This document shows, piece by piece, positions 38,258 to 59,574 of a stretch of DNA of 64,000 bases (its first letter is position 1; every line of letters starts with the position of its first letter). The notes beneath the pieces are model-generated. The model saw nothing but the letters and a program-made list of their open reading frames with translations. It had not been told where the DNA came from and ran no database searches. The translations under genes and the position numbers were made by a program. This DNA comes from Beijerinckiaceae bacterium (GTDB lineage Bacteria; Bacteroidota; Bacteroidia; Chitinophagales; Chitinophagaceae): NCBI GenBank assembly GCA_903970475.1, contig CAJCIQ010000211.1:1-64000 (forward strand). The letters run 5' to 3'.

Positions 38258-39637
38258 TTATTGAATGGCTAACCGTTTTTTCACCTCACTGGGTACAAAG
38301 TCAGCCTTTTTGAATGGATTTGCTTCCGTATTAAATACGTAGGTATTAATACTTACAGAGGGGTTGCCCCCGAAGAGGAGATAGAAATATTTCATGGTTT
38401 CTGCAAAGAAGAAAGTAGGCAACTCGTCATTTTGTTGCATGGTCCTTACATCCGATATGGAAGAGAAAGCAATCGGCGTTTTACAATACTTCAATATATC
38501 GTTGTAAAAGGTTGTACCCATGTCCAGGTATTCCTGTTTGCCCGTAAGGGTATGCAGGTAATACGCAGATTCTACAATCTCCGGATTCAGGTCATACCCA
38601 GGATCTGTGACCTGCTGGGTATGGTAGTTATAGCCCCCTGGTTCCAGCCCGTAGCGGTTCCATAACCAATACCAGGTATGTTCAAACTTTTCGGCCAGGC
38701 GCATATCCCCGTTCATACCTAATAAGGTAGGGAAAAACGCATCATATAAGGTCACTTCAGGCAATACTTTGGCACCCGTGTTCATGTCCACATAGCCATA
38801 CCAAAGAGCGGTATCGCTTTCTTCCGGCACATATTTATTAATGGCGGCAATGGAGACGTCCCACATCTTTTTGAGGTCAGGGTCATTAAACAATAACCAG
38901 CTCTTGTAGAGGTATTCATAATAAGAGTCGGCGCAGGCCCCGATGAATGAGCGGGGATCTGTCCACTGCCCGGTTTCAATGTTTAAGGAAAGGCCATCCA
39001 GGTTGAGCGCAGACCGGTGATCATAGATATAGGTCGATGCCTTTTTAGCGGCCTGGTAGTATTTGGGGTCTTTGGTATAATAACTGAGGATACCCATTTC
39101 AAATAAATAGGTGCCCCCTTCGGCTATATTCACAACTGCCCCTTTTCCCTGACCCGTTTTAAGGTTGACCAAATAATAAGGAAGGCCGGTGGGTGAATTA
39201 AAGGCGTTGAGTTCCCTGTCTCCAAAGTCTTTGGCTTTGGCCAGCAATTGGGGATTTTGGGTCCACTGATACATGCTCAACAGGCCACCCAGTATGCGGA
39301 TATTGACTTCAAAGGTCTTCACGAAAAGATCCTTATCAAAGCTGACGCTATCCAGTATATAAGCCTCCACTTCCTTAGCTTCCTTATCCAGCCCCATAAC
39401 CCGCATCGTGCTGTAGGCATCGATGGGGGAAATATGCAGGGACGCTTTATACCAGTCTGCGTATCCTTTGGTCACGGGTTTGAGGACGTCATGGCCCCAG
39501 GCATAAGTCCGGTAGGCATCCCAGGAACGGATAAATTCAGCTTTCACGTCGGCGGCTGTAGGGGCCGGTTGTCCAAATCCGCTGGTCAAAGATCCACAGA
39601 GGGCTACAACCCCCAAAAGCCTGTATAATTTCATCAT
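38258..39637 (-). CDS. GH47-family class I alpha-mannosidase-like protein
   Basis: A 459-residue protein with a signal peptide (about 1-22, ending SGFGQ). The GH47 pattern is clear: FIRSWDAYRTYAWGHDVLKP at the start, LHISPIDAYSTMRVMGL, FIGACADSYYEYLYKSWLL, LNPEIVESAYYLHTLTGKQ, and DELPTFFFAETMKYFYLLF with a following FNTEANPF. GH47 enzymes fold as an alpha/alpha barrel, bind calcium at a C-terminal threonine-type loop, and trim alpha-1,2-linked mannose from glycans. The family is mainly eukaryotic, with a minority of bacterial members. Secretion implies an extracellular or periplasmic substrate. It follows the PsbP-like gene by 26 bp, probably one operon. Confidence 0.85.
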   Translation of the reverse strand: MMKLYRLLGVVALCGSLTSGFGQPAPTAADVKAEFIRSWDAYRTYAWGHDVLKPVTKGYADWYKASLHISPIDAYSTMRVMGLDKEAKEVEAYILDSVSFDKDLFVKTFEVNIRILGGLLSMYQWTQNPQLLAKAKDFGDRELNAFNSPTGLPYYLVNLKTGQGKGAVVNIAEGGTYLFEMGILSYYTKDPKYYQAAKKASTYIYDHRSALNLDGLSLNIETGQWTDPRSFIGACADSYYEYLYKSWLLFNDPDLKKMWDVSIAAINKYVPEESDTALWYGYVDMNTGAKVLPEVTLYDAFFPTLLGMNGDMRLAEKFEHTWYWLWNRYGLEPGGYNYHTQQVTDPGYDLNPEIVESAYYLHTLTGKQEYLDMGTTFYNDILKYCKTPIAFSSISDVRTMQQNDELPTFFFAETMKYFYLLFGGNPSVSINTYVFNTEANPFKKADFVPSEVKKRLAIQ

Positions 39638-44519: not shown

Positions 44520-46244
44520 CTAACGATTGCTTGCTTTTTTTACGAAGACCTCGATCCACCCATTGGTGGGTCGCCTGGGAGCCAGAAAGGAATCTATCTG
44601 TACATAAGCTGCGCTTCTTAAGCTATCCCTCACCCTGAAGGGATAAAAGTTGTTTAATACCGGCACGTATTCATAGAGTACCATATCGTACACGCTGTTC
44701 CGGATACGGGCACATACCGTGTCTGCCTCCCGGTTAAACATGCATACCCCCAAATGATACCACAAGGGCTCCATGGGGCCTTTATCTTCCGTAAAATTTA
44801 ATTCCCTGACCAAAGGAGTAAGTTCACTCATGTTCAGCACGTGGGGACGAGGGCCGGCTTCCGAGAACATAGGCATGGCCTTGAGCCGCTCTATCCCCGC
44901 TACCGTCGAAGGAGGCAACAACATGTTATGGAAGGAAGGCATGCCCGGCACCGAAGTCCAGGTCCCCTCATCCTCCCGGTAGGTCGTATCCAGGTTGCGC
45001 ATGAAGGTATGGCGGTTGATCACGTTTTCCCCGGTTGCAGAAACCGTTTCTCCGGTAGGCGCTACGGGAGCCGTAGCCGCCGGATGCAACCACTTCCCGC
45101 CTATCCTGTCGAGGTACTTCCAGTAAGATCCCGACCACCACAGCAGGATGACGCCCAGCAGCAGGACAACGGAGCGCGCGCCAACGTCAGCCGAACCAGA
45201 ACGCGCGCCGGCGGTCAAGCCCACGCCAGCTATCCCCGGCAACCACTGCGCCAGCGCCGTCAATATATAAGCCACCGCAAATGCGTGGAAAAAAATATTA
45301 TTATCCGGAGGTGTATAACTTGTCACCTGAAACACAGCCGCCGCGCCCAGGATCCCTATGGTCAGGATCAAGAACAATCCATGCGTCCGGTCCATCCAGA
45401 TTGACCTCCATCCCTGCTGATGTACCTGAGCCGAGGTCAACAAGATGATGAGCAGCAAATAGAATTTAATCCATTCAGAACCATTTAAAAAAGATTCCAG
45501 GATATCCGGCACCGAAAGCCTGGCCGTATGGGGCGCTTGTCCATGGTTAAACCAATAGCCAAAGGAATAACGGGTAAAGGGGAAAATGAGTAAAAAGGCG
45601 ATGATCACAAAGGCCCCTGCTATGACAAAGGCCAGGTTCCAGCGCTTACCCATCCAGGCAGCATATAAGGCCAGAGCTGCCCCTACGCCTATCATCAGCA
45701 TTCCTCCATCCTGTTTGGTGAAAAACGATAGGAATAACAAACATCCTGCCCCCACCGCGCAAGCCAGCCGGGTCCAACCCGTTTTGGCCCCAAAGGCTTC
45801 CAGCAAAGCGTAAATCCCCATGATCCCATAGAGGATATCCGTATTGTTATACCAGGGCCAGAAATTCGGCTGTATATAGGACAAACACCATATCAGCACC
45901 GCCCCTAACCGAATGGCCCAGGGCGCCTCCAGCCGCCTTAAAATCCCCCGGAAGGCCAGGCCGCCCAGGATATTGAGCAATACCTGGGCTTTGATCAGGC
46001 TCATCATGGATGGACCGAACACCTTGAAAAACAAAGCCGGTATCAGCCAGTACCCAAAACCCATGGGCAATCCAAAGTCCCGGTAAGGGATTTGTCCGGC
46101 ATAGAGGCGCCAGGCGCCTTCATAAGAAAGGAAAATATTAACCCTGTATGGAAAATGCAGTACCAGTGGGATCATGGAGATCCCGATGATCAAAAGGGTA
46201 TCAGCCTGACGGCATATAAACGAATGAGGGGAGGTAAGACGCAT
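44520..46244 (-). CDS. Polytopic membrane glycosyltransferase-like protein
   Basis: A 574-residue protein with about ten to twelve membrane segments in its first 400 residues, followed by a soluble C-terminal part. NIFLSYEGAWRLYAGQIPYR in the first periplasmic loop resembles the D/E-containing loop of GT39/ArnT-type (GT-C) enzymes that use lipid-linked sugars as donors; GLPMGFGYWLIPALFFKVFG follows as in these families. A Gly/Ala/Arg-rich bit (GARSGSADVGARS) is coded by GC-rich DNA. It is divergent from the polysaccharide operon starting at 46442 and has a tandem 17-bp repeat upstream. Confidence 0.6.
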   Translation of the reverse strand: MRLTSPHSFICRQADTLLIIGISMIPLVLHFPYRVNIFLSYEGAWRLYAGQIPYRDFGLPMGFGYWLIPALFFKVFGPSMMSLIKAQVLLNILGGLAFRGILRRLEAPWAIRLGAVLIWCLSYIQPNFWPWYNNTDILYGIMGIYALLEAFGAKTGWTRLACAVGAGCLLFLSFFTKQDGGMLMIGVGAALALYAAWMGKRWNLAFVIAGAFVIIAFLLIFPFTRYSFGYWFNHGQAPHTARLSVPDILESFLNGSEWIKFYLLLIILLTSAQVHQQGWRSIWMDRTHGLFLILTIGILGAAAVFQVTSYTPPDNNIFFHAFAVAYILTALAQWLPGIAGVGLTAGARSGSADVGARSVVLLLGVILLWWSGSYWKYLDRIGGKWLHPAATAPVAPTGETVSATGENVINRHTFMRNLDTTYREDEGTWTSVPGMPSFHNMLLPPSTVAGIERLKAMPMFSEAGPRPHVLNMSELTPLVRELNFTEDKGPMEPLWYHLGVCMFNREADTVCARIRNSVYDMVLYEYVPVLNNFYPFRVRDSLRSAAYVQIDSFLAPRRPTNGWIEVFVKKASNR

Positions 46245-46294: not shown

Positions 46295-46441
46295 AAATTC
46301 AGCGCACGTTAAATAAAACAAGGGGTTCACCCGATTTCCCCCCAGGGCCCAATCATTGTACTTAATTTGCAGTCTAACAGGGATCCTGCATTAGGTCTCT
46401 TTTATTTTGTTTACCTGGCAAAACCCAATTTGAGCGTCTTG

Positions 46442-47650
46442 ATGGGATTGGATATCATCATAGTAGGGCTACAGGCCTGGCACACGGATATTGGTAGTAA
46501 TTGTAAAAGCATCGCTACTGAGCTGTCTAAAAGACATAGGGTACTCTATGTAAATGCCCCATTGGACCGTAATACCCTGATTAAGGATAAAAACAACGCC
46601 CACGTGCGCATGCACCTGGACATCCGAAGCGGTAAGGCGCCCAACCTCCTGGAGGTCCAGCCTGGTCTCTGGAGTTATTACCCGGAACATATTCTGGAAT
46701 CCATCAACTGGATTCCCTCAACGGCCCTGTTTTCCCTGGTCAACCGGATCAACAACCGGCGCTTTGCCGCCGACATCAAGAAGGCAGCCAAAGCCCTGGG
46801 GTTTGGACGTTTTGTCCTGTTCAATGACAACGATATCTTCCGCACTTTTTATCTGAAGGAACTACTCAGACCGGAAGTGTATGTGTATTACAGCAGAGAC
46901 AACCTGGTGGGCGTGGATTACTGGAGGAGGCATGGATTAAGGTTGGAACCCAAACATATTGCCAAGGCAGATCTGGGAACGGCCAACTCAACTTTCCTCG
47001 CCTCTTACCTGAGCAAATACAATCAAAATAGTTTATACATAGGACAAGGTTGCAACCTGGCCTTATTTGATGCGGGTAAATCCTACGAAAGGCCGGAAGA
47101 CCTCAAAGACATTCCCCACCCCATAGTTGGATATGTCGGAGCCGTCAATAGCCTGCGGTTGGATCCAGCCGCCCTGAAGGAAATTGCGGAGTCCAGGCCC
47201 GATTATAGCCTGGTATTGGTAGGTCCCGAAGACGAAACCTTCAAAAACAGCGATTTACATGGGCTAAAAAACGTATATTTCTTAGGCAAACGTCCCATTG
47301 AATCCCTACCACAATATGTTGCTTCTTTTGACGTCTGCATTAATCCCCAACTGGTCAATCCGGTGACCATAGGAAACTACCCCTTGAAAATAGATGAATA
47401 CCTGGCCATGGGTAAACCCACCGTGGCTACCCAAACCCAGGCCATGGAGGTATTCCGGGATCATGTATATATGGCTGAAAATGCCAGGGATTATCCCTCG
47501 CTCATCGATAAAGCCCTCAGCGAAGATGATCCTCAAAAACAAGGGCAAAGAAGAAGGCTGGCCTCCACCCATACCTGGGAAAGCTCAGTAGCCATCCTGG
47601 AACAAGCCATAGAAAAGACACAATCAATAATAAAGACCATTAACTACTAA
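46442..47650 (+). CDS. Glycosyltransferase family 4-like (TuaH-type)
   Basis: About 402 residues from the ATG at 46442; the longer frame uses a TTG and gives no extra family similarity. MGLDIIIVGLQAWHTDIGSN opens the first Rossmann half, with VNAPLDRNTLIK and YYSRDNLVGVDYWRRHGLRL following. IVGYVGAVNSLRLDPAALKE, LVGPEDETF and DVCINPQLVNPVTIGNYPLK to EYLAMGKPTVATQ form the donor-binding half, with the E-x7-E-like region of GT4/TuaH enzymes. It is the first gene of a packed run with an acyltransferase, UbiA, SDR and HAD genes, so it should add a sugar to the same product. Confidence 0.85.
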   Translation: MGLDIIIVGLQAWHTDIGSNCKSIATELSKRHRVLYVNAPLDRNTLIKDKNNAHVRMHLDIRSGKAPNLLEVQPGLWSYYPEHILESINWIPSTALFSLVNRINNRRFAADIKKAAKALGFGRFVLFNDNDIFRTFYLKELLRPEVYVYYSRDNLVGVDYWRRHGLRLEPKHIAKADLGTANSTFLASYLSKYNQNSLYIGQGCNLALFDAGKSYERPEDLKDIPHPIVGYVGAVNSLRLDPAALKEIAESRPDYSLVLVGPEDETFKNSDLHGLKNVYFLGKRPIESLPQYVASFDVCINPQLVNPVTIGNYPLKIDEYLAMGKPTVATQTQAMEVFRDHVYMAENARDYPSLIDKALSEDDPQKQGQRRRLASTHTWESSVAILEQAIEKTQSIIKTINY

Positions 47651-47661
47651 ACCTTATCCAT

Positions 47662-48288
47662 TTGTCTTTTGCCGCTTACATAAAGCAACATCCATCTCTG
47701 AAACGCCTGGCCTTGCGTACGCTCATGCCGGCAGGTGAGGCCAGGCCCCGGTGGTGGGTAAGGAACCTGCTCAACCCCTTTTTGATGAAAAAAGGGAAAG
47801 GGGCAAAGATCCGGCGCAGGACACGCATGGACATCATGCCCTTCAATAACTTCCGGTTGGGCGCCCATAGTATGGTAGAAGATTTTGCCTGCGTAAACAA
47901 CGGCATGGGAGACGTCCTTATCGGAGATCATTCCTTAATCGGCATTGGCTGCGTCATCATCGGACCCGTAGAAATCGGCAACAATGTCATCCTGGCCCAG
48001 CACATCGGCGTTTCTGGCCTTAACCACGGCTACAAGGACATTAGTATTCCTATCAAAAATCAGCCTTGCGAAACAGGGTTGATCCGGATTGGAGACGATT
48101 CCTGGATAGGCGCCAATGCTGTCATCGTAGCCGGGGTCACGATTGGCAAACACTGCATTGTAGCCGGGGGTAGCGTAGTGACCAAAAATGTAGCAGACCA
48201 TACCATGGTCGGTGGTAATCCGGCCCGAATACTCAAACAATATAATGTACAGACAGGTGATTGGGAAAAGCCCTTGATCACCCGGTAA
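47662..48288 (+). CDS. Hexapeptide-repeat O-acyltransferase
   Basis: A 208-residue left-handed beta-helix acyltransferase starting at a TTG at 47662, 11 bp after the GT4 stop. Repeats of the [LIV]-G-x4 type run from about residue 85 on: VLIGDHSLIGIGCVIIGPVE, IGNNVILAQHIGVSG, IRIGDDSWIGANAVIVAGVT and IGKHCIVAGGSVVTKNVAD. HIGVSGLNHGY holds a likely catalytic histidine. Such enzymes acetylate sugars using acetyl-CoA. In this operon the acceptor is probably the glycan or its lipid-linked sugar. Confidence 0.85.
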   Translation: MSFAAYIKQHPSLKRLALRTLMPAGEARPRWWVRNLLNPFLMKKGKGAKIRRRTRMDIMPFNNFRLGAHSMVEDFACVNNGMGDVLIGDHSLIGIGCVIIGPVEIGNNVILAQHIGVSGLNHGYKDISIPIKNQPCETGLIRIGDDSWIGANAVIVAGVTIGKHCIVAGGSVVTKNVADHTMVGGNPARILKQYNVQTGDWEKPLITR

Positions 48289-48292
48289 AATA

Positions 48293-49285
48293 ATGTTCAC
48301 CCTCAGAGACATCATGCATAACGTTACCAATACGCCGCTTACTTCTGGAACCACCCAGGTCACACATCCTTCCATGAAAAGAGGTTTGTTGGGAACGGTG
48401 ATTCCCTATCTGCAACTGATGCGCGTGCAACAGTGGGTTAAAAATTCCTACTTGTTTTTGCCCATGTTTTTTTCCGGGGAAATGTTCAGACTACCCTTGC
48501 TGGTGCAGGCAGGATGGGGCTTTTTATCCTTTTGTTTTGTCGCTTCCAGCATATACATCATCAACGATTATATGGACAGGGAAGCCGATCGCCTGCATCC
48601 GGTAAAACAATTCAGACCCATGGCCTACGGATTGGTATCCGGCACTTCCGGACTGATCCTGTCGGGCGTTTGCCTCGCCCTCGGCGTAGGACTCGGAGCC
48701 ATGGTCAAAGATAAATTCCTGTTTGTCCTGCTGCTGTACTTCTTCATGAACCTGGCCTATTCCCTGGGCTTAAAGAATATCAGCATCCTGGACGTACTGA
48801 TCTTGTCCATGGGTTTTGTATTTCGGGTGAAAGCAGGCGGGGTAGCTACCCACATCGCCATCTCTGAATGGTTGATGATCATGGTGTTCCTGCTTTCCAT
48901 TTTCATGGCCGTAGCTAAAAGAAGGGATGACCTGGTTATCAAACAAAAATCCGGGCTGGATCTAAGGGCTTCCCTGAAAGGCTACAATATAGACTACCTT
49001 AACCTGATCATGGCACTTCTGGCCGCCGTTATTGTGGTGGCCTACCTGATGTATACCATTTCTCCGGAAACGGTTGCCCGTTTAAAAACCTATAGACTTT
49101 ACTATACCACCGTCTTTGTATTGGCCGGTTTGCTCCGATACCTGCAAATCACCATCGTTGAAAACAATACCGGCTCCCCAACCCGCCTCCTGCTCAAGGA
49201 TAGGTTCCTTCAGTTAACGCTGTTGGCATGGATAGCCAGTTTTTACTTCATTCTTTACATGCCCGATATATCCCTGTTCAAATGA
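48293..49285 (+). CDS. UbiA-type prenyltransferase, DPPR synthase-like
   Basis: A 330-residue membrane protein with about eight or nine helices. MRVQQWVKNSYLFLPMFFSG and IYIINDYMDREADRLHPVKQ (the N/D-x3-D metal motif) match the branch of UbiA that joins 5-phosphoribosyl diphosphate to a polyprenyl phosphate, as in mycobacterial Rv3806c. AKRRDDLVIKQ is a second family segment. This reaction starts the route to polyprenyl-phosphoryl ribose and arabinose. The following gene, a DprE2-like reductase, starts within its last codons. True start could be a later ATG (residue 8 or 28). Confidence 0.8.
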   Translation: MFTLRDIMHNVTNTPLTSGTTQVTHPSMKRGLLGTVIPYLQLMRVQQWVKNSYLFLPMFFSGEMFRLPLLVQAGWGFLSFCFVASSIYIINDYMDREADRLHPVKQFRPMAYGLVSGTSGLILSGVCLALGVGLGAMVKDKFLFVLLLYFFMNLAYSLGLKNISILDVLILSMGFVFRVKAGGVATHIAISEWLMIMVFLLSIFMAVAKRRDDLVIKQKSGLDLRASLKGYNIDYLNLIMALLAAVIVVAYLMYTISPETVARLKTYRLYYTTVFVLAGLLRYLQITIVENNTGSPTRLLLKDRFLQLTLLAWIASFYFILYMPDISLFK

Positions 49286-50025
49286 CACAAAGTACCAAAA
49301 GCGCTCTCCTCTTAGGGGCAGGATCCGATATGGCCGTCGCCATCGCTCACCAACTGGCTTCCAGGGGCTATGATTTGGTCTTGGCCGGAAGAGATAAAGA
49401 TTACCTCTCAGGGTTGGCCACCGACCTGAGCATCAGAGGGACCATCCAGGTATCCGTACAGTATTTCGATGCATTGGATTATGGTAGCCATGAAGCATTC
49501 TATGCCTCCCTAGCGCATGTTCCAGAAGTGACCGTTTGCGCCTTCGGATACCTGGGTGACCAGGAAAAGGGCCTGACCGACTTCAAGGAAGCCCAGCGCA
49601 TCCTGGGCACCAACTATATTGGAGCCGTCTCTATTCTCAATCTCATTGCCACCGACTACGCCCGTTTAAAAAGGGGCACCATCGTAGGCATCAGTTCTGT
49701 AGCCGGAGACAGGGGAAGGGGGAGCAATTTTCTGTATGGAAGCGCCAAAGCAGGGTTCAGTGCTTACTTATCCGGCCTGAGAAACCGGTTTTATAAGGAA
49801 GGGGTGAGCGTTATTACAGTAAAGCCGGGATTTGCCGCTACCCGCATGACGGCCCACCTGCACTTACCTCCGGCCCTGACAGCCAGTCCTGAACAAGTAG
49901 GTCAGTCCGTGATCAGGGCCATATCCCATAAAAAAGATACCATTTACGTGAAATCCGTTTGGAAATGGCTGATGTTGGCCATCCGGATGATTCCAGAACC
50001 CTTTTTCAAAAAAATGAGCTTATAG
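49282..50025 (+). CDS. DprE2-like short-chain dehydrogenase
   Basis: About 247 residues from the ATG at 49282, overlapping the UbiA stop by 4 bp (ATGA). ALLLGAGSDMAVAIAHQLAS is the NAD(P) loop; VTVCAFGYLGDQEKG, GISSVAGDRGRGSNFLYGSA and KAGFSAYLSGLRNRFY carry the YxxxK site; KPGFAATRMTAHL and IRMIPEPFFKKMSL end it. These segments line up closely, from memory, with mycobacterial DprE2 (Rv3791), which reduces decaprenyl-phosphoryl-2-keto-ribose to arabinose. That reaction requires an oxidase, DprE1, which is not encoded here. Position next to the DPPR-like UbiA supports the assignment. Confidence 0.8.
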   Translation: MTQSTKSALLLGAGSDMAVAIAHQLASRGYDLVLAGRDKDYLSGLATDLSIRGTIQVSVQYFDALDYGSHEAFYASLAHVPEVTVCAFGYLGDQEKGLTDFKEAQRILGTNYIGAVSILNLIATDYARLKRGTIVGISSVAGDRGRGSNFLYGSAKAGFSAYLSGLRNRFYKEGVSVITVKPGFAATRMTAHLHLPPALTASPEQVGQSVIRAISHKKDTIYVKSVWKWLMLAIRMIPEPFFKKMSL

Positions 50026-50027
50026 TC

Positions 50028-50648
50028 ATGAGCACCGCCTACTCGCATTCGTCCATTGCTTTTTTCGACTTTGACGGGACCATTACGTCAAAGGATACCT
50101 TGGCGGAGCTGTTGAAATTCCAGAAGGGAAAATTTAAGTATTATACCGGATTGGTCTTCCTATCCCCTGCGTTGATCCTGTTTAAACTGGGGTTGATTTC
50201 TAACCATAGGGCAAAAGAGATTCTGTTGGAGTTTTTCTTTAAGGGCATGCCCGTATCGGACTTCAATGCCCGGTGCAGGGAGTTTGCCGAAACCCGGCTA
50301 CCCTTGCTTTTCCGAAAAGGCGCTTTGTCTGAGATACGGAGGCATTTACAAAACAATACCCCCGTTGTCATCGTAACCGCCTCTCCGGAAAACTGGGTCC
50401 TTCCCTGGTGCCAGCAGTACAACCTGGAATGTATCGCTACCCGCCTGAAAGTCCGCAACGGCAAACTGACGGGTAAGATATCCGGGCAGAATTGCTCCGG
50501 GGAAGAAAAAGTAAGGCATATCCTGAAACGATACAACCTATCTTATTATACAAAGATCTACGCCTATGGGGACACACCGGGTGACCTCCCCATGTTGTCA
50601 TTGGCTACGGATAGCTATTATAAACCATTTAAGGAAAGAACCTATTAA
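50028..50648 (+). CDS. HAD-IB family phosphatase
   Basis: About 206 residues from the ATG at 50028, 2 bp after the SDR stop. FFDFDGTITSKDTLAELLKF has the DxD nucleophile pair (D14, D16), VIVTASPENW is motif II, and IYAYGDTPGDLPMLSLA is the metal-binding motif IV. HAD-IB members include phosphoserine phosphatase-like enzymes. In this operon it is a good candidate to remove the 5-phosphate from polyprenyl-phosphoryl-5-phosphoribose, the step between the UbiA and DprE2-like reactions; that substrate is inferred. Confidence 0.85.
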   Translation: MSTAYSHSSIAFFDFDGTITSKDTLAELLKFQKGKFKYYTGLVFLSPALILFKLGLISNHRAKEILLEFFFKGMPVSDFNARCREFAETRLPLLFRKGALSEIRRHLQNNTPVVIVTASPENWVLPWCQQYNLECIATRLKVRNGKLTGKISGQNCSGEEKVRHILKRYNLSYYTKIYAYGDTPGDLPMLSLATDSYYKPFKERTY

Positions 50649-50714: not shown

Positions 50715-53700
50715 CTAATTGGCTTTGAGGAAGGTGAGGGCTTTTTTGCTCCCATTCCCTTCGACCTGTAAAAAATACATACCGGTCGGCAGTTTAGATA
50801 TGTTCATGGGGGTAATCCGGGTCTTTTCGTCTGCGCCCATTTCAATACTCGTAGCCTGGACCAGGGTCCCTCCTGCATTGTATATCCTGAAAGCGATGTT
50901 ACCGGAGTACCCGTTCAGATTCACGTTGAGGGTGGAGCTGACCGGATTGGGGAATACCCGTGCCGACATAGCTGCTTCTTGCATGGCAGGAGGTGTAGGG
51001 AGTGCTTTTTCCACGTCCAATCCCATCACCGCCGTAGAAGTCCTTCCCAAGTTGTCTGTTACGGTCAATTGGAAAAGATAGTTACCCAAAGCCAGGCCAT
51101 TGATGTTGGTGTTGGCACTATCTGCTGCACTCAAGGTGACTTCAGAAGGGCCGGCCAATTCCAACCATACGTAGGAAGTCAGGGAGCCGCCCGTAGGGGC
51201 CAGGGATTCGGAGCCAACCAGGGCATAGCCATTTGCCGTTAAGCTGTCTGTCAGGGAAACCACCGTATCGGTATTGGCGATAACAGCTTTGGGGCTCTGG
51301 ATAGAAGCATCTACGGTAACCACCACGGTATCCGAGGCATTCCGCCCACTGTTGTCTGTCACGGTCAATGCGAACGTGTAGGTTCCCACCGTCAAATTGT
51401 AAGCCTCTGCCCTGGAAGCATCCGGGTTCCTCATTGCATATTGGGTGGGTCCGCTAATATAGGACCATTGATAAGAAATAATAGAATCGCCTGCGTCAGC
51501 AGAGGTATTGGCTATCATAGACGTGCTGTCTACAGGGAGTATAATGGTTTGATTTCCCCCAGCCGATACCGTCAGCGGCGTGATATTAGAACTGGACCCG
51601 GTGGTGCTGGTACCCGTGCTGGTAGATGAAGCCGCGTCTACAGTGATGACTACCGAATCACTGGCACTGAGTCCGAAGTTATCTTTGACAGTCAGCAACG
51701 CGGTATATACCCCGGCGGCCAGGGTTTTAAGTTCCGTCGAAGCCACTGTACGCGTTGAAAAGGAATACTTATCGCTGCCAGGGGCTCCGATCATCACCCA
51801 GGAGTAAGAAGTAATCTCGCCCCCGCTATTGGGATCTGAAGCACTGCCTTTCAAAGCAACCGAATCCAGGGGCAACTGAATCGTTTCGTTGGAACCAGCA
51901 CTTACTTTAAGGGCAGTGAACACTTGAGGTTTTACGGTGATCACTACCGTATCACTGGCGTTGTAACCCATGTTGTCTATTGCCGTCAGTACAGCGGTAT
52001 AAGTACCCGCCATCGCGACCTTCAATTCCGTCTTAGCAGATGTACGGCTGGAAAAAGAATATTTATCTGATCCCGGAGCTCCGACCATCACCCAGGAATA
52101 GCTACTGATCTGGCCACCCAGGTTGTAATCTGTAGCGCTACCACTTAAGGTCACACTGTCCAAGGGTAATTGTATAGTTTGGTCAGGTCCTGCGTTTACT
52201 ATGGGTTTGCCCTGCTTTACGATTACCGTCATCGTATCAGAAGTACTGAGACCGTAGTTATCTGTGGCTTTCAGGACGACGGTATAGGTTCCGTTAGTAA
52301 GGCCCCTCAGTTCTGTTTTTGCGGTAGTACGGGAAGAGAAAGAATAGCTATCAGCTGGGGCTCCTATCATTGTCCAGGAATAGGAGGATATGCTGCCTCC
52401 GCTGTTCAAATCGGAAGCGGACCCACTCAGGGCCACGGAGTCCGTCGGTAATGTGATGGTCTGATTAGCGCCTGCATAAACGGTGGGAGCGCTATATCCT
52501 GCTGCAGTCACATTGATAGTCAGAGTATCGGCTTTGCTCAGCTTCAGTGAATCTGAAATGTTAAGGGTCACTTTGTAGGTCCCTGCTGCCAGATCCGATA
52601 AGGTGGCCAGGGATGTGGCGGCACCCGAAAGGCTATAGCCAGAAGGACCACTGAGGACACTCCATTGGTAAGCCAGTTTTGCACCATTGGGATCTGAAGA
52701 TCCAGCCGCACTTAAGGAAACGCTGCTCGTAGGCAGATGCACCGTTGTATCTACCGGATCGGCAGCAATCACCAGGGGTTTGGTGACTGGGGGTACAGCG
52801 GCAGTGCTGGCGGCATTCACTATAACCAATACAGTGTCGGTACCGGTGAGGCCGAAATTATCGGTCACCTTCAGTACCACCTTATAGGTACCCTGCACCA
52901 GATTCCTGAACTCTGTTGCAGCATTAGTCGTGGTGGAAAAGCCATAGGTGGAGGGTCCACTCGCCACAGACCATTGGTAGGCGGTGATGGTTCCCCCGCT
53001 GTTGGGATCGGAGCCAGACCCACTTAAGGCAACGGAGTCCAGGGGAAGCGTAATGGCCGGATCAGTGCCGGCCGTGGCTTTTGGGCTGGACTTCGCACCC
53101 AGGTTTACGTTCACGGTGATTTTGGCAGAATCCTTCCGCCAGTTATTATCTATGGCACGCAATTGGAATACATAAGTTCCGGTGGTCAGGTTGGATATAG
53201 TTGCCGTCAGACCGGAAGGGATCGTGATCAGCGCCGTGGTAGGGCCGCTGACCTGGGTCCATAAGGTATAGTTGATTAAGGAACCTCCGTTTCCGGTAGC
53301 CGTTCCCGTTAGTGTCGTGGTCGAAGTGGTTATATTCTGTGTAGGCCCTGGATTAACCGTCGGCGGAGCCGTAATGGGAATAGGCAGGTTCAGGCAGTAG
53401 CTGGAGCTTCCGTTAGACACACAGAAGGGAGAAGAGGTGGAGTGAAGTTTCTGGTTCAACGGATCAACAGCCGTAATCCAGGGTACGTCGTAAGAGTTTG
53501 GATAATTTGACTCTATCAAGCCGGATATGTCACCTTCAAATATGCCATTTCCGCAAACATCCCCCTTATTCCTACCCCAGGAATAGAGTTGACCATGGGA
53601 ATCTTCCGCATAGGCATAGAACACATCGCCTGTGCCGCCAAATATATTGGTAAAACTGTGCAGGCCATTGGCAATGTGCACAGGTTTCTGTTGCAGGTTC

Positions 53701-54758
53701 TCTCCAACCCCCCAATCCCAGGCATAAGGGGTAGGGGTACCGCCTGTAGGAGCAGGATTTACGGTGTAGGTAGCAAAATTCAGTTCCTGCCCATTTCCGA
53801 TAGCTCCAACGGCATTATCCCCCCAGGCCCAGAGCGTGGAGTCTGTGAGAATAGCGTAGGACGCTTCACAGTTGACCGCGATTTTAGCCACTTTAGCGGG
53901 GAAACCCAATTGTCCATCCAATAAGGTGGGTGTATAAGACGCAGGCGCTTGTGACATGTAACCACTATTGCCAATGCCCAAGTAAGAAGTATAACAACCC
54001 CAACCATAGAGGGAGCCGTTACTTAACAGGGCATAGCTCCAGAGATTTCCACCCGCAATATCGGCAGCTTTTGAAGGCAGGTTGATCTTGGCAGGCAGAT
54101 AAGCAGAGGGATTGGAGCCTCTGGCCAGCAGCCAGGGAGAAGGATAGTAACCCCAGCCCCCCCAGGTCCATACATTACCTTGATTATCCAGGGCTATGCC
54201 TATCATACCGGCAGCAATTTTGGTGATCACCGTTCCGGAAGGAAAGGTCACCTGTACCGGCCTTGAGTTGGTCCCCCCCGCAGATCCGTTTCCCCGGATA
54301 CCCCCCTGGGTATTACCCCAAATCCAAACAGTCCCATCAGCTTTCAACGCCATCGTTTCATAACCATTGTTGTTGGTGGTAGCAACAACCTGAACGACGT
54401 TGGTAAAAGCATTACCCGAACTGTCCGTCATGATCTGGGTGGGGTTGGCCACGGAAGTCGTCTGGGTACCAATACCTACGTTGGCATATTGGTTTTCCCC
54501 CCAACTCCACACGTTACCGTTACCATCAACCAGTGCATAGTGGTGAAGGGCAGCACTGATCTGAACAATCGAAGACGGGCCTGTTACCTGTTGCACGTTA
54601 GCGTATTTCACATCATACGCCTGGTGCGTGGAGGTATTCAGGATAAAGCAATCATATTCACCGGCGCCCACCAAATACTTGGGGGTTTGCGAATAGGTTG
54701 CAGATAAGCCAAAAAAGTAGAATAATCCGGTGAAGAATAGCGTAAGTTTCAAATTCAT
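50715..54758 (-). CDS. Giant RCC1-repeat / PKD-repeat protein with T9SS tail
   Basis: A 1347-residue secreted protein. After a signal peptide (about 1-23), residues about 25-450 hold RCC1/ATS1-type beta-propeller repeats with ALVDGNGNVWSWGENQYANV and repeated G-x-x-WxWG motifs (GYETMALKADGTVWIWGNT, YALLSNGSLYGWG). From about 460 to 1250 come eight PKD/K319L-like repeats of about 100 residues, the middle ones nearly identical, each with a Y-x-W motif, LxxGTYT and DNxGxxxSDTVxV. Residues about 1265-1347 are a type A T9SS sorting domain (RVFPNPVSSTLNV to PTGMYFLQVEG). It should be a long surface or secreted adhesin-like protein. No partner gene is evident. Confidence 0.9.
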   Translation of the reverse strand: MNLKLTLFFTGLFYFFGLSATYSQTPKYLVGAGEYDCFILNTSTHQAYDVKYANVQQVTGPSSIVQISAALHHYALVDGNGNVWSWGENQYANVGIGTQTTSVANPTQIMTDSSGNAFTNVVQVVATTNNNGYETMALKADGTVWIWGNTQGGIRGNGSAGGTNSRPVQVTFPSGTVITKIAAGMIGIALDNQGNVWTWGGWGYYPSPWLLARGSNPSAYLPAKINLPSKAADIAGGNLWSYALLSNGSLYGWGCYTSYLGIGNSGYMSQAPASYTPTLLDGQLGFPAKVAKIAVNCEASYAILTDSTLWAWGDNAVGAIGNGQELNFATYTVNPAPTGGTPTPYAWDWGVGENLQQKPVHIANGLHSFTNIFGGTGDVFYAYAEDSHGQLYSWGRNKGDVCGNGIFEGDISGLIESNYPNSYDVPWITAVDPLNQKLHSTSSPFCVSNGSSSYCLNLPIPITAPPTVNPGPTQNITTSTTTLTGTATGNGGSLINYTLWTQVSGPTTALITIPSGLTATISNLTTGTYVFQLRAIDNNWRKDSAKITVNVNLGAKSSPKATAGTDPAITLPLDSVALSGSGSDPNSGGTITAYQWSVASGPSTYGFSTTTNAATEFRNLVQGTYKVVLKVTDNFGLTGTDTVLVIVNAASTAAVPPVTKPLVIAADPVDTTVHLPTSSVSLSAAGSSDPNGAKLAYQWSVLSGPSGYSLSGAATSLATLSDLAAGTYKVTLNISDSLKLSKADTLTINVTAAGYSAPTVYAGANQTITLPTDSVALSGSASDLNSGGSISSYSWTMIGAPADSYSFSSRTTAKTELRGLTNGTYTVVLKATDNYGLSTSDTMTVIVKQGKPIVNAGPDQTIQLPLDSVTLSGSATDYNLGGQISSYSWVMVGAPGSDKYSFSSRTSAKTELKVAMAGTYTAVLTAIDNMGYNASDTVVITVKPQVFTALKVSAGSNETIQLPLDSVALKGSASDPNSGGEITSYSWVMIGAPGSDKYSFSTRTVASTELKTLAAGVYTALLTVKDNFGLSASDSVVITVDAASSTSTGTSTTGSSSNITPLTVSAGGNQTIILPVDSTSMIANTSADAGDSIISYQWSYISGPTQYAMRNPDASRAEAYNLTVGTYTFALTVTDNSGRNASDTVVVTVDASIQSPKAVIANTDTVVSLTDSLTANGYALVGSESLAPTGGSLTSYVWLELAGPSEVTLSAADSANTNINGLALGNYLFQLTVTDNLGRTSTAVMGLDVEKALPTPPAMQEAAMSARVFPNPVSSTLNVNLNGYSGNIAFRIYNAGGTLVQATSIEMGADEKTRITPMNISKLPTGMYFLQVEGNGSKKALTFLKAN
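51009..53378 (-). repeat. Eight tandem PKD-like repeat units within the giant protein
   Basis: About 300-bp units. Units 4-6 share SYSWVMIGAPGSDKYSF-like cores (SYSWTMIGAPADSYSF, SYSWVMVGAPGSDKYSF, SYSWVMIGAPGSDKYSF) and a following SSRTxAKTEL, so they look recently duplicated, whereas units 1-3, 7 and 8 are diverged. High DNA similarity would make the repeat number prone to change and hard to assemble. Confidence 0.7.
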
Positions 54759-55533: not shown

Positions 55534-57285
55534 ATGGGGGCACCTTCACAGCGTCCACCCAACGGAGATTCCGTCCAACAGGCCGCACTGATTAATACAA
55601 AAGGAGTAGATACCCATACCTTCGATGCCATTGTCATCGGATCCGGCATATCCGGAGGCTGGGCAGCCAAAGAGCTTTGCGGGAAGGGCCTCAAAACCCT
55701 GGTTCTGGAAAGGGGCAGGAACATCGTTCATGTCAAAGACTACGATACCGCCTTTAAAAGCCCCTGGTACTTTCCTCACCGACTGCGCAATTCGGACCAG
55801 GACAAAGCAGACAATCCCATTCAGTCCACCGTATATGATGAAGCCACCAAACAATTCTTCGTTTCTGACAAAGAGCATCCTTATATACAGGAGAAGCCCT
55901 TTCATTGGGTTAGGGGATATCAGTTAGGCGGCAGGTCCCTGACCTGGGGTCGTCAGTGCTACAGGCTTAGTGACCTGGACTTCGGAGCCAATCAAGCAGA
56001 TGGCCACGGGGTTGACTGGCCCATCCGGTATAAGGACATAGCCCCCTGGTATGACTATGTAGAACAGTTTGTGGGCATTAGCGGCCAGGCGGAAGGATTA
56101 GCTCAACTACCCGATGGACAGTTCCTTCCGCCCATGGAGATGAATTGCGCCGAAACCCAGTTTGCCCAACGCATAAAAGCGCATTACCCGGAGCGCGTCA
56201 TCACGATTGCCCGGGTCGCCAACCTCACCCAAGGCTGGAACGGCAGGGGACCTTGCCAATTCAGGAACCTTTGCATGAGGGGCTGTCCCTTTAGCGGATA
56301 TTTCAGTTCCAACGCCGCCACCCTACCCGCTGCCCAGTCCACGGGCAACCTAACGTTACTGACAGACGCCATCGTCATAGAAGTACTCTACGACGAAACG
56401 ACCCGCAAGGCCAAAGGCGTAAGGGTCATGGACCAGCATACCCACCAGGTAACCGAGTACTTCGCCCGCATCCTCTTCATTAACGCCTCTACCATCGCCA
56501 CAGCCGCCCTGCTCCTGGGTTCGGTAAGCCGTAGTTTCCCCCAGGGATTGGGCAATTCCAGCGGGCAGGTAGGCCATAACCTGATGGACCACCATACCGG
56601 TACCGGAGGCTTTGGCATCCTGGAAGGATTCGAGGATCAATATTATGCTGGCCGGCGGCCGGCTGGGTTCTATGTTCCCCGCTTTGTGAATCTGGGAACC
56701 GATAAAAACAACCGCAAGGAATATGTGAGGGGATTCGGATACCAGGGCATAGGTATACGCATGGAATGGCCGGAGCTTACCACCCTGGAAGGATTTGGTC
56801 CGGACTTTAAAGAAAAGCTCCTCAAACCAGGGCCCTGGCAGCTATGGATGGGCGCCTACGGAGAGACCCTACCCTATTATGAAAACCATATTCAATTATC
56901 AAAAGATCAGAAGGACCAGTGGGGCCTGCCGCTGGTGAAGATACACTTTGAATACCAGGCCAATGAAGAGGCCATGCGCGAAGACGAAGAAGCATACACC
57001 ATGGAAATGATGAAAGCCGCAGGATTGACCGGGATCTCCACTTACAGGCATTTTGATGCTCCAGGTTCGGCAGTCCACGAGATGGGCACCGTCCGCATGG
57101 GCAATGATCCCCGTACCTCGGTATTGAATGGGTATAACCAAATGCATGATGTTCCCAATGTATTCATTACGGATGGAAGCTGTATGACTTCTTCGGCCTG
57201 GCAGAATCCATCCTTGACCTACATGGCACTGACGGCAAGGGCTTGTGACTATGCCTTATCCGAACTCAAGGCGGGAAGGCTATGA
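55534..57285 (+). CDS. GMC-family flavin-dependent oxidoreductase (gluconate dehydrogenase-like)
   Basis: A 583-residue flavoenzyme. FDAIVIGSGISGGWAAKELC (about 29-48) is the FAD-binding Rossmann motif; FHWVRGYQLGGRSLTWGRQC matches the GMC signature 1 region; NLCMRGCPFSGYFSSNAATL has paired cysteines as in gluconate and related dehydrogenases; the C-terminus has SAVHEMGTVRMGNDPRTSVL and NVFITDGSCMTSSAWQNPSL with the catalytic histidine/asparagine region. It oxidises an alcohol or sugar, in the periplasm if exported with subunit 3. No cytochrome c subunit is adjacent. The final 37 bp overlap the convergent GT14 gene. Confidence 0.9.
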   Translation: MGAPSQRPPNGDSVQQAALINTKGVDTHTFDAIVIGSGISGGWAAKELCGKGLKTLVLERGRNIVHVKDYDTAFKSPWYFPHRLRNSDQDKADNPIQSTVYDEATKQFFVSDKEHPYIQEKPFHWVRGYQLGGRSLTWGRQCYRLSDLDFGANQADGHGVDWPIRYKDIAPWYDYVEQFVGISGQAEGLAQLPDGQFLPPMEMNCAETQFAQRIKAHYPERVITIARVANLTQGWNGRGPCQFRNLCMRGCPFSGYFSSNAATLPAAQSTGNLTLLTDAIVIEVLYDETTRKAKGVRVMDQHTHQVTEYFARILFINASTIATAALLLGSVSRSFPQGLGNSSGQVGHNLMDHHTGTGGFGILEGFEDQYYAGRRPAGFYVPRFVNLGTDKNNRKEYVRGFGYQGIGIRMEWPELTTLEGFGPDFKEKLLKPGPWQLWMGAYGETLPYYENHIQLSKDQKDQWGLPLVKIHFEYQANEEAMREDEEAYTMEMMKAAGLTGISTYRHFDAPGSAVHEMGTVRMGNDPRTSVLNGYNQMHDVPNVFITDGSCMTSSAWQNPSLTYMALTARACDYALSELKAGRL

Positions 57286-58218: not shown

Positions 58219-59574
58219 TTGAAAAAATATTTCTCTTCATATTGGATCAGATCTGCATTTTACACTGTTTCACAAAGGCTCTCCATCACCCTATTCGGAT
58301 TTTTCAGCCTGATGATCCTCGCCCGGCATATTCTTCCGGAGAGTATGGGTATCTGGGCCCTGTTCACGGTAGTGACCACTGTGTTCGAAACAACAAAAGT
58401 AGGACTCCTTAAAAATGCTCATATCCTATACGTAACCGGCACCCAAGATACCCACCAAAAAACAGTGATTGCTTCATCTTCCTTGCTCATTAACGCTACG
58501 ATAACATTAATCTTTATCCTGCTCATCCTCCTTTGTGGCTCCTGGCTGAGTAAATTGTTAGGTTCCGGGGAGGGGCTAAACACCCTCCTTCACCTGTTCA
58601 TTCCCGGTTTGATTGCCATGGTCATCTTCTCCCATATGGAGGCCATCTCCCAATCCCACCTGGACTTCAAAGGCGTTTTCGCAGGCTACTTTGTACGCCA
58701 GGTTGTTTTTTTCGCCATCGTTGCTTACCACGCCATTTTCAAAGTCCCCATCGCCCTGGAAAGACTCTCGATATATTGGTCCATTTCCATATTGGCCGGC
58801 ACCGTCTTCATCTATTGGTACAGCCGTCCCCACCTCCATAACAAATTCAACCCATCCCTGGGCTGGATTAAGAAAATCACGGGCTATGGCAAGTATATTT
58901 TTGCTTCAGGGCTGATATCTAACCTCTACACCAACATGGACCAGCTCATGACAGCGGGCGTGATGAAATTACCCGCTGTGGTGGCCTCCTACAACATATC
59001 CAACCGGATCAATGCCGTCATCGACGTACCTTCCTTTGCGGCCGCTGACGTGATCTTTCCCAAGGTATCCATGGCCTCTGCCCTGGAAGGTGAAGGAAAG
59101 GTTAAGTACCTTTACGAACGCATGGTGGCCCTGCTGTCCTGCTTTGTCGTACCCCTTACCCTGGTCATCATCATCTTTGCCAAATGGGTGGTCCTCGTGG
59201 TAGGCGGAAAGCAGTACGTCAGCCAAGCCACCCCTATCCTCCAGCTCTACATGATCACCGGGCTACTGAGGCCCATGCAAAACCAGGCAGCCAACCTGCT
59301 CAACTCCATAGGTAAACCCGCCCTTTGCTTTATCCTCAACGCAGTCACCCTTGGAGCCAACCTTTTTATCAGTTACCTCTGCATAAAGCACTTCGGCTAC
59401 ATAGGCGCCGCCATTGCTTCGGTGTTCACCTATGGCATAAGCCTTCCCGTCTGGTACTACGTCGTCAAACGGCTGGTAGGTGCAGAAGCCAGGAATATCA
59501 TTGCCTACATGAGGGAATACTATTCCCTGTTCTTCAAAAAAGGGTTAGGGTTGATCCTGGGGTTAAAATCATAA
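58219..59574 (+). CDS. Wzx-like polysaccharide flippase
   Basis: A 451-residue membrane protein starting at a TTG at 58219. Around twelve membrane helices are visible: TLFGFFSLMILARHILPES near the start, TITLIFILLILLCGSWL, LFIPGLIAMVIFSHMEAI, and later FVVPLTLVIIIFAKWVVLV. QSHLDFKGVFAGYFVRQVVF is the conserved loop of the MATE-related polysaccharide transporter families. It would move the lipid-linked repeat unit across the inner membrane. It lies between GT14 and GT4 genes; the next gene on the other strand starts 11 bp after its stop. Confidence 0.88.
   Translation: MKKYFSSYWIRSAFYTVSQRLSITLFGFFSLMILARHILPESMGIWALFTVVTTVFETTKVGLLKNAHILYVTGTQDTHQKTVIASSSLLINATITLIFILLILLCGSWLSKLLGSGEGLNTLLHLFIPGLIAMVIFSHMEAISQSHLDFKGVFAGYFVRQVVFFAIVAYHAIFKVPIALERLSIYWSISILAGTVFIYWYSRPHLHNKFNPSLGWIKKITGYGKYIFASGLISNLYTNMDQLMTAGVMKLPAVVASYNISNRINAVIDVPSFAAADVIFPKVSMASALEGEGKVKYLYERMVALLSCFVVPLTLVIIIFAKWVVLVVGGKQYVSQATPILQLYMITGLLRPMQNQAANLLNSIGKPALCFILNAVTLGANLFISYLCIKHFGYIGAAIASVFTYGISLPVWYYVVKRLVGAEARNIIAYMREYYSLFFKKGLGLILGLKS

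Follow-up and report, generated by a model that had tools for sequence, protein, structure and literature searches.

The mycobacterial decaprenylphosphoryl-arabinose (DPA) pathway consists of Rv3806c, Rv3807c, DprE1 and DprE2, together with the Emb/Aft GT-C enzymes. Three-component pentofuranose systems, with GT136, have been described for Citrobacter youngae O1 and O2 (Kelly et al., 2024, PMC11127046). DprE1/E2 homologues have already been reported in loci of Araf-containing glycans, and the word stem "Bacteroid" is absent from the main text of that report (PMC11127046).

Here we analyzed a 64,000-nucleotide stretch of DNA from a Chitinophagaceae genome (the window). An earlier note had read its gene block 48293-50648 as a partial DPA-like route without DprE1, and as a candidate undescribed pathway. 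Our analysis indicates that the block very probably belongs to a complete polyprenyl-phosphoryl-arabinofuranose pathway whose oxidase is unlinked, the genes being split over two loci.

Results

The window encodes relatives of DPPR synthase and DprE2

The block and the two genes upstream of it are as follows, with gene order, overlap, gap and families just as the earlier note had given them.

46367-47650, + strand: GT4 glycosyltransferase, 5' of UbiA (Pfam Glyco_trans_1_4; likelier start, ATG 46442)
47662-48288, + strand: hexapeptide acyltransferase between GT4 and UbiA (Pfam Hexapep)
48293-49285, + strand: UbiA-family polyprenyl-phosphate phosphoribosyltransferase, DPPR synthase-like (330 aa)
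49282-50025, + strand: SDR reductase, DprE2-like, putative 2-keto-pentofuranose reductase (247 aa; 4-bp overlap with UbiA)
50028-50648, + strand: HAD-IB phosphatase, predicted 5-phosphatase of lipid-linked phosphoribose (206 aa; 2-bp gap after SDR)

The UbiA protein matched Pfam UbiA and scored 224.9 bits against the NCBIfam DPPR synthase model PRK12324, just under the cut-off of 234. Its top solved relative was decaprenyl-phosphate phosphoribosyltransferase (PDB 8j8j, E=1e-40), and it keeps the NDxxDxEADRxHPxKxFRP motif of the PRPP site. For the SDR, which keeps the YGSxK motif, the top PDB match was DprE2 (21gq, E=1e-32), far ahead of other SDRs, as its proposed likeness to DprE2 would have it. 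The SDR gene, near 50 kb, was also assigned to the short-chain dehydrogenases by a Pfam/NCBIfam family scan, with 319 bits against PRK07102 (above cut-off) and 198 bits against the DprE2 model (below its cut-off of 250). The HAD protein matched Pfam HAD and TIGR01490 (120.9 bits, above cut-off). Neither UbiA nor the SDR fell into an unrelated family, their relatives being the phosphoribosyltransferase and DprE2. Inside block 48293-50648 there was no DprE1 gene.

The GT4 gene adjoins UbiA in several relative loci (L005, L006, L026, L028, L029 and others), and the genus-mate G001 is the sole relative in which the acyltransferase gene was found next to the operon (67% identity). The gene immediately following HAD encodes a 1347-aa protein (50715-54758, - strand) that combines PKD domains with RCC1-like repeats and has a Por secretion tail; PKD proteins like it sit near the operon in many relatives. 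At 38258-39637 (- strand) the window also encodes a protein of GH47 (354 bits), an alpha-mannosidase family studied mainly in eukaryotes.

Most relatives keep DprE1 between UbiA and DprE2

About 30 of the 43 loci found by UbiA similarity, nearly all of them from Chitinophagaceae, share the order UbiA-DprE1-DprE2-HAD preceded by a GT-C gene on the minus strand. Synteny across about 30 Chitinophagaceae loci shows that the block is not a chance assembly, and since DprE1 normally lies between UbiA and DprE2 in relatives, the UbiA/SDR junction of the window is the usual DprE1 site. The HAD-IB gene is usually beside UbiA, and it stays close even in operons devoid of DprE1 and DprE2. In Thermoflavifilum the GT-C gene is itself part of the operon, flanked by UbiA and DprE1; no HAD gene was seen there. 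The genus-mate G001 has the order HAD-SDR-DprE1-UbiA-acyltransferase, with DprE1 kept in the slot.

A DprE1 is encoded on another contig of the same genome

The earlier note had suggested searching the genome for a DprE1-like FAD oxidase. In the assembly to which the window belongs, a search for FAD_binding_4 returned four proteins, one of which, on contig C76, was a clear DprE1:

G000:C76:8283-9629, - strand: DprE1, class B (448 aa; NCBIfam DprE1, 437 bits, curated cut-off 500)

Like UbiA and the SDR against the DPPR synthase and DprE2 models, the C76 protein thus scored under the NCBIfam cut-off. It is 38% identical to M. tuberculosis DprE1 (E=4e-91) and, in the alignment, retains Y60, H132, K134, Q334, Q336, K367 and K418 (M. 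tuberculosis numbering). A search with the C76 protein as query found no second DprE1 in this genome. None of the other three FAD_binding_4 proteins was accepted as the oxidase: NCBIfam makes L001 GlcD-like, L003 is MurB judging from its sequence, and L002, a 995-aa frame, was unmatched by the DprE1 query. Because DprE1 is encoded on C76, the central claim of a DprE1-free route is wrong at the genome level; the absence holds for the block only. Together, the UbiA, DprE1 and DprE2-like families support the proposed synthesis of a polyprenyl-phosphoryl-pentose donor.

Cys387 of M. tuberculosis DprE1 is the site attacked by benzothiazinones. This position is Ala in 19/19 class B rows of the alignment and in 76 of 78 other DprE1s, with Ser in the remaining two, so the aligned DprE1s from outside M. 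tuberculosis are predicted to be insensitive to these covalent drugs. At the position of F369, every class B DprE1 has Met and nearly all others have Phe.

DprE1 falls into two classes

Class A DprE1s are in nearly all cases 39-45% identical to the C76 protein and, wherever this was checked, adjoin UbiA. Class B DprE1s are 63-73% identical to it and unlinked to UbiA. In a tree of 97 DprE1 proteins, class B formed a single clade (SH-aLRT 100) apart from class A. Its nearest clade, G585/G618, comes from another Bacteroidota family, where DprE1 and DprE2 are adjacent, and no class B protein was found outside the family at ≥50% identity in 395 genomes of the phylum. Class B genes have no common context: they are solitary in unrelated neighbourhoods, with flanks common only to very close relatives.

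Among 294 surveyed genomes, 18 have class B; five of them also keep class A beside UbiA, and 13, the window's included, have class B only. All nine read operons of the other class-B-only genomes have UbiA-SDR-HAD with an empty DprE1 slot, and a Chitinophaga MAG and Chitinophaga sedimenti are two further named genomes with this arrangement. In C. sedimenti (G060) the class B DprE1 is in two pieces (L069, L071) and the UbiA match is split too (L038, 10001-10884); each is a pseudogene or a sequencing error.

The UbiA and SDR of the window are sisters of those of G001 (support 100/99 and 100/98), which has class A in the slot. Mapping the class-B-only label required five changes on the UbiA and SDR trees; counting well-supported branches only, the minimum is four and three, respectively. 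The simplest reading of these trees would be that class-B-carrying lineages lost their operonic class A copy on several occasions.

DprE1, DprE2 and a GT-C protein co-occur

In the 294 family genomes, UbiA was found in 82, DprE1 in 70, DprE2 in 67 and the GT-C protein in 64. The 82 UbiA-positive genomes comprise 67 with DprE1 and DprE2, 12 with neither, three with DprE1 only (G240, at a contig end; G187, divergent; and G031) and none with DprE2 only. All 12 genomes with UbiA and neither class of DprE1 also lack DprE2 and the GT-C protein (12/12), and in the nine of these loci that were read HAD is the sole companion of UbiA. DprE2 is present in 13/13 class-B-only genomes, and class B was never found without UbiA and DprE2. 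As class B is unlinked, its partnership with the window SDR rests on this co-occurrence, which ties class B strongly to the pathway, with Fisher values that overstate the support because related genomes are not independent.

Loci L128-L136 (G092, G067, G228, G165, G314, G149, G016, G097 and G172) have UbiA-HAD but none of DprE1, DprE2 and the window-type GT-C, and are predicted to be polyprenyl-phosphoryl-ribose systems. Membrane proteins lie beside UbiA-HAD at L128:5674-6825 (no Pfam match), L134:10356-12080 and L136:10821-12413, and may be the glycosyltransferases of these systems.

The 44520 protein adopts the GT-C fold

Two further window genes are candidates for the use and export of the lipid donor:

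44520-46244, - strand: GT-C fold glycosyltransferase, candidate arabinofuranosyltransferase from fold and co-occurrence (574 aa)
58219-59574, + strand: Polysacc_synt/MATE-like flippase (Pfam Polysacc_synt_3, 68.3 bits; MatE under its cut-off)

The 44520 protein had no match in Pfam or NCBIfam. Its AlphaFold model, built from 47 homologues (pTM 0.86, mean pLDDT 81), matched ArnT, AftA, oligosaccharyltransferase and Pmt4 in Foldseek, and PMT, ArnT, EmbB, AftA and AftB at Z 9-18 in VIA-align, with PMT, ArnT, EmbB and AftA at Z 12-18. Across the 47 sequences, D56 is invariant and E42 nearly so, both acidic residues of the first outer loop. The protein thus has the fold, the multi-TM core and the conserved acidic loop residues of the GT-C superfamily. 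DprE1 was present in all of the surveyed genomes that have the GT-C protein (64/64). Given its GT-C fold and its tracking of DprE1/E2, the 44520 protein is the best arabinosyltransferase candidate, and the model and co-occurrence make plausible its use of the lipid-linked pentose donor, as the earlier note had surmised; both donor and acceptor are predictions. In G001, the GT-C match (G001:C1:3394266-3396185; L156, 12267-14183) is broken into three pieces, the last with a reported in-frame TAG, and the gene is possibly lengthened or damaged.

A flippase-like gene occurs near the operon in L006, L028, L029 and G001, and the 58219-59574 protein might possibly export the lipid donor.

Discussion

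In its chemistry this locus follows mycobacterial DPA synthesis and in its architecture the three-component pentofuranose systems, so that the earlier suggestion of an undescribed pathway no longer applies. As in mycobacteria, a DPPR synthase, DprE1, DprE2 and a GT-C enzyme are present, with catalytic residues conserved. In contrast to the mycobacterial system, the window has a HAD-IB protein instead of the unrelated phosphatase Rv3807c, DprE1 is unlinked and has Ala at the Cys387 position, the GT-C protein is from a different sequence family, and the polyprenol is probably not decaprenol.

The enzyme set also matches that of the three-component systems (PMC11127046): a PPPRS with a HAD phosphatase, a flippase (here a candidate) and a GT-C enzyme. 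The HAD of the window is, however, a separate protein, whereas theirs is an N-terminal domain, and DprE1/E2 would epimerise here, the role of ORF13 in Citrobacter. The class A operons, seen at about 30 loci in Chitinophaga and elsewhere in the Chitinophagaceae, have homologous UbiA, DprE2, HAD and GT-C in the same order, but hold a class A DprE1 in the slot that is empty in the window, where class B is encoded elsewhere. As far as the literature searched shows, what is new is the Bacteroidota survey, the finding that an unlinked clade has repeatedly displaced the operonic DprE1, and the GT-C sequence family that tracks it.

In the proposed pathway, with all activities assigned from family membership, UbiA would join PRPP and polyprenyl phosphate to give polyprenyl-P-ribose-5-P, and HAD would remove the 5-phosphate to leave polyprenyl-P-ribose. 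The C76 DprE1 would then oxidise C2 with FAD, and the SDR (DprE2) would reduce the resulting 2-keto lipid to polyprenyl-P-arabinose, the predicted pentose. The donor would be flipped, possibly by the Polysacc_synt/MATE-like protein, and the 44520 GT-C would place arabinose on a putative surface glycan acceptor, outside the inner membrane. We found no report of surface arabinose in Chitinophaga in the literature searched.

An operon running without DprE1 would need the SDR alone, or another enzyme, to oxidise C2, with the C76 DprE1 serving something else. The C76 gene is indeed unlinked to the operon, and 5 kb downstream of the operon lies a GMC oxidoreductase gene (55534-57285, + strand), weakly similar to pyranose oxidase and cholesterol oxidase models. 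That route is nevertheless very unlikely: no copy of the GMC gene was beside the operon in the relative loci read, for which we rejected it as a substitute oxidase; class B never occurred without UbiA and DprE2 in the 294 genomes; and wherever both DprE1 classes were absent DprE2 was absent as well. That the end product is not arabinose but ribose or xylose, the SDR working as an epimerase by itself as ORF13 does in C. youngae O2, appears highly improbable to us. One SDR is enough for Xylf in C. youngae O2 (PMC11127046), and the UbiA-HAD operons without an epimerase would yield ribose; yet DprE2, a 2-keto reductase, is the closest relative of the window SDR, which tracks DprE1 almost perfectly, whereas ORF13 was aligned with GalE (PMC11127046).

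The window's genome is a draft (92% complete, 263 contigs, 2.4% contamination), in which C76 might be a contaminating contig and the organism truly without DprE1. We find this barely credible, since the tetranucleotide signatures of C76 and the window correlate at r = 0.969, while relatives reach 0.80 at most, and since the split arrangement is also present in 12 other surveyed genomes, among them the single-contig genome G137. Where the earlier note had left three options, a DprE1 lying elsewhere is thus borne out, and a substitute oxidase and a different lipid-linked pentose are set aside.

The best explanation, which we hold with high confidence, is that class A was lost from the slot in the window lineage, its work now being done by a divergent class B enzyme encoded far from the operon. 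It is improbable, though worth stating, that class B is in addition an isoform of its own, under separate regulation, which has repeatedly taken the place of the operon-encoded enzyme and lets the bacteria switch donor; if so, one distant gene would control the ribose/arabinose switch of the lipid donor, and hence of the surface glycan.

These data suggest that (i) the apparent pathway gap is closed, the organism having the full lipid-linked arabinose gene set, so that the route is not partial and an annotation of the cluster only would miscall it as such; (ii) an in-operon enzyme has repeatedly been swapped for an unlinked homologue; (iii) in Chitinophagaceae, a GT-C family that no Pfam or NCBIfam model covers goes together with arabinose-donor synthesis; and (iv) the presence of DprE1/E2 separates arabinose-making from predicted ribose-only systems.
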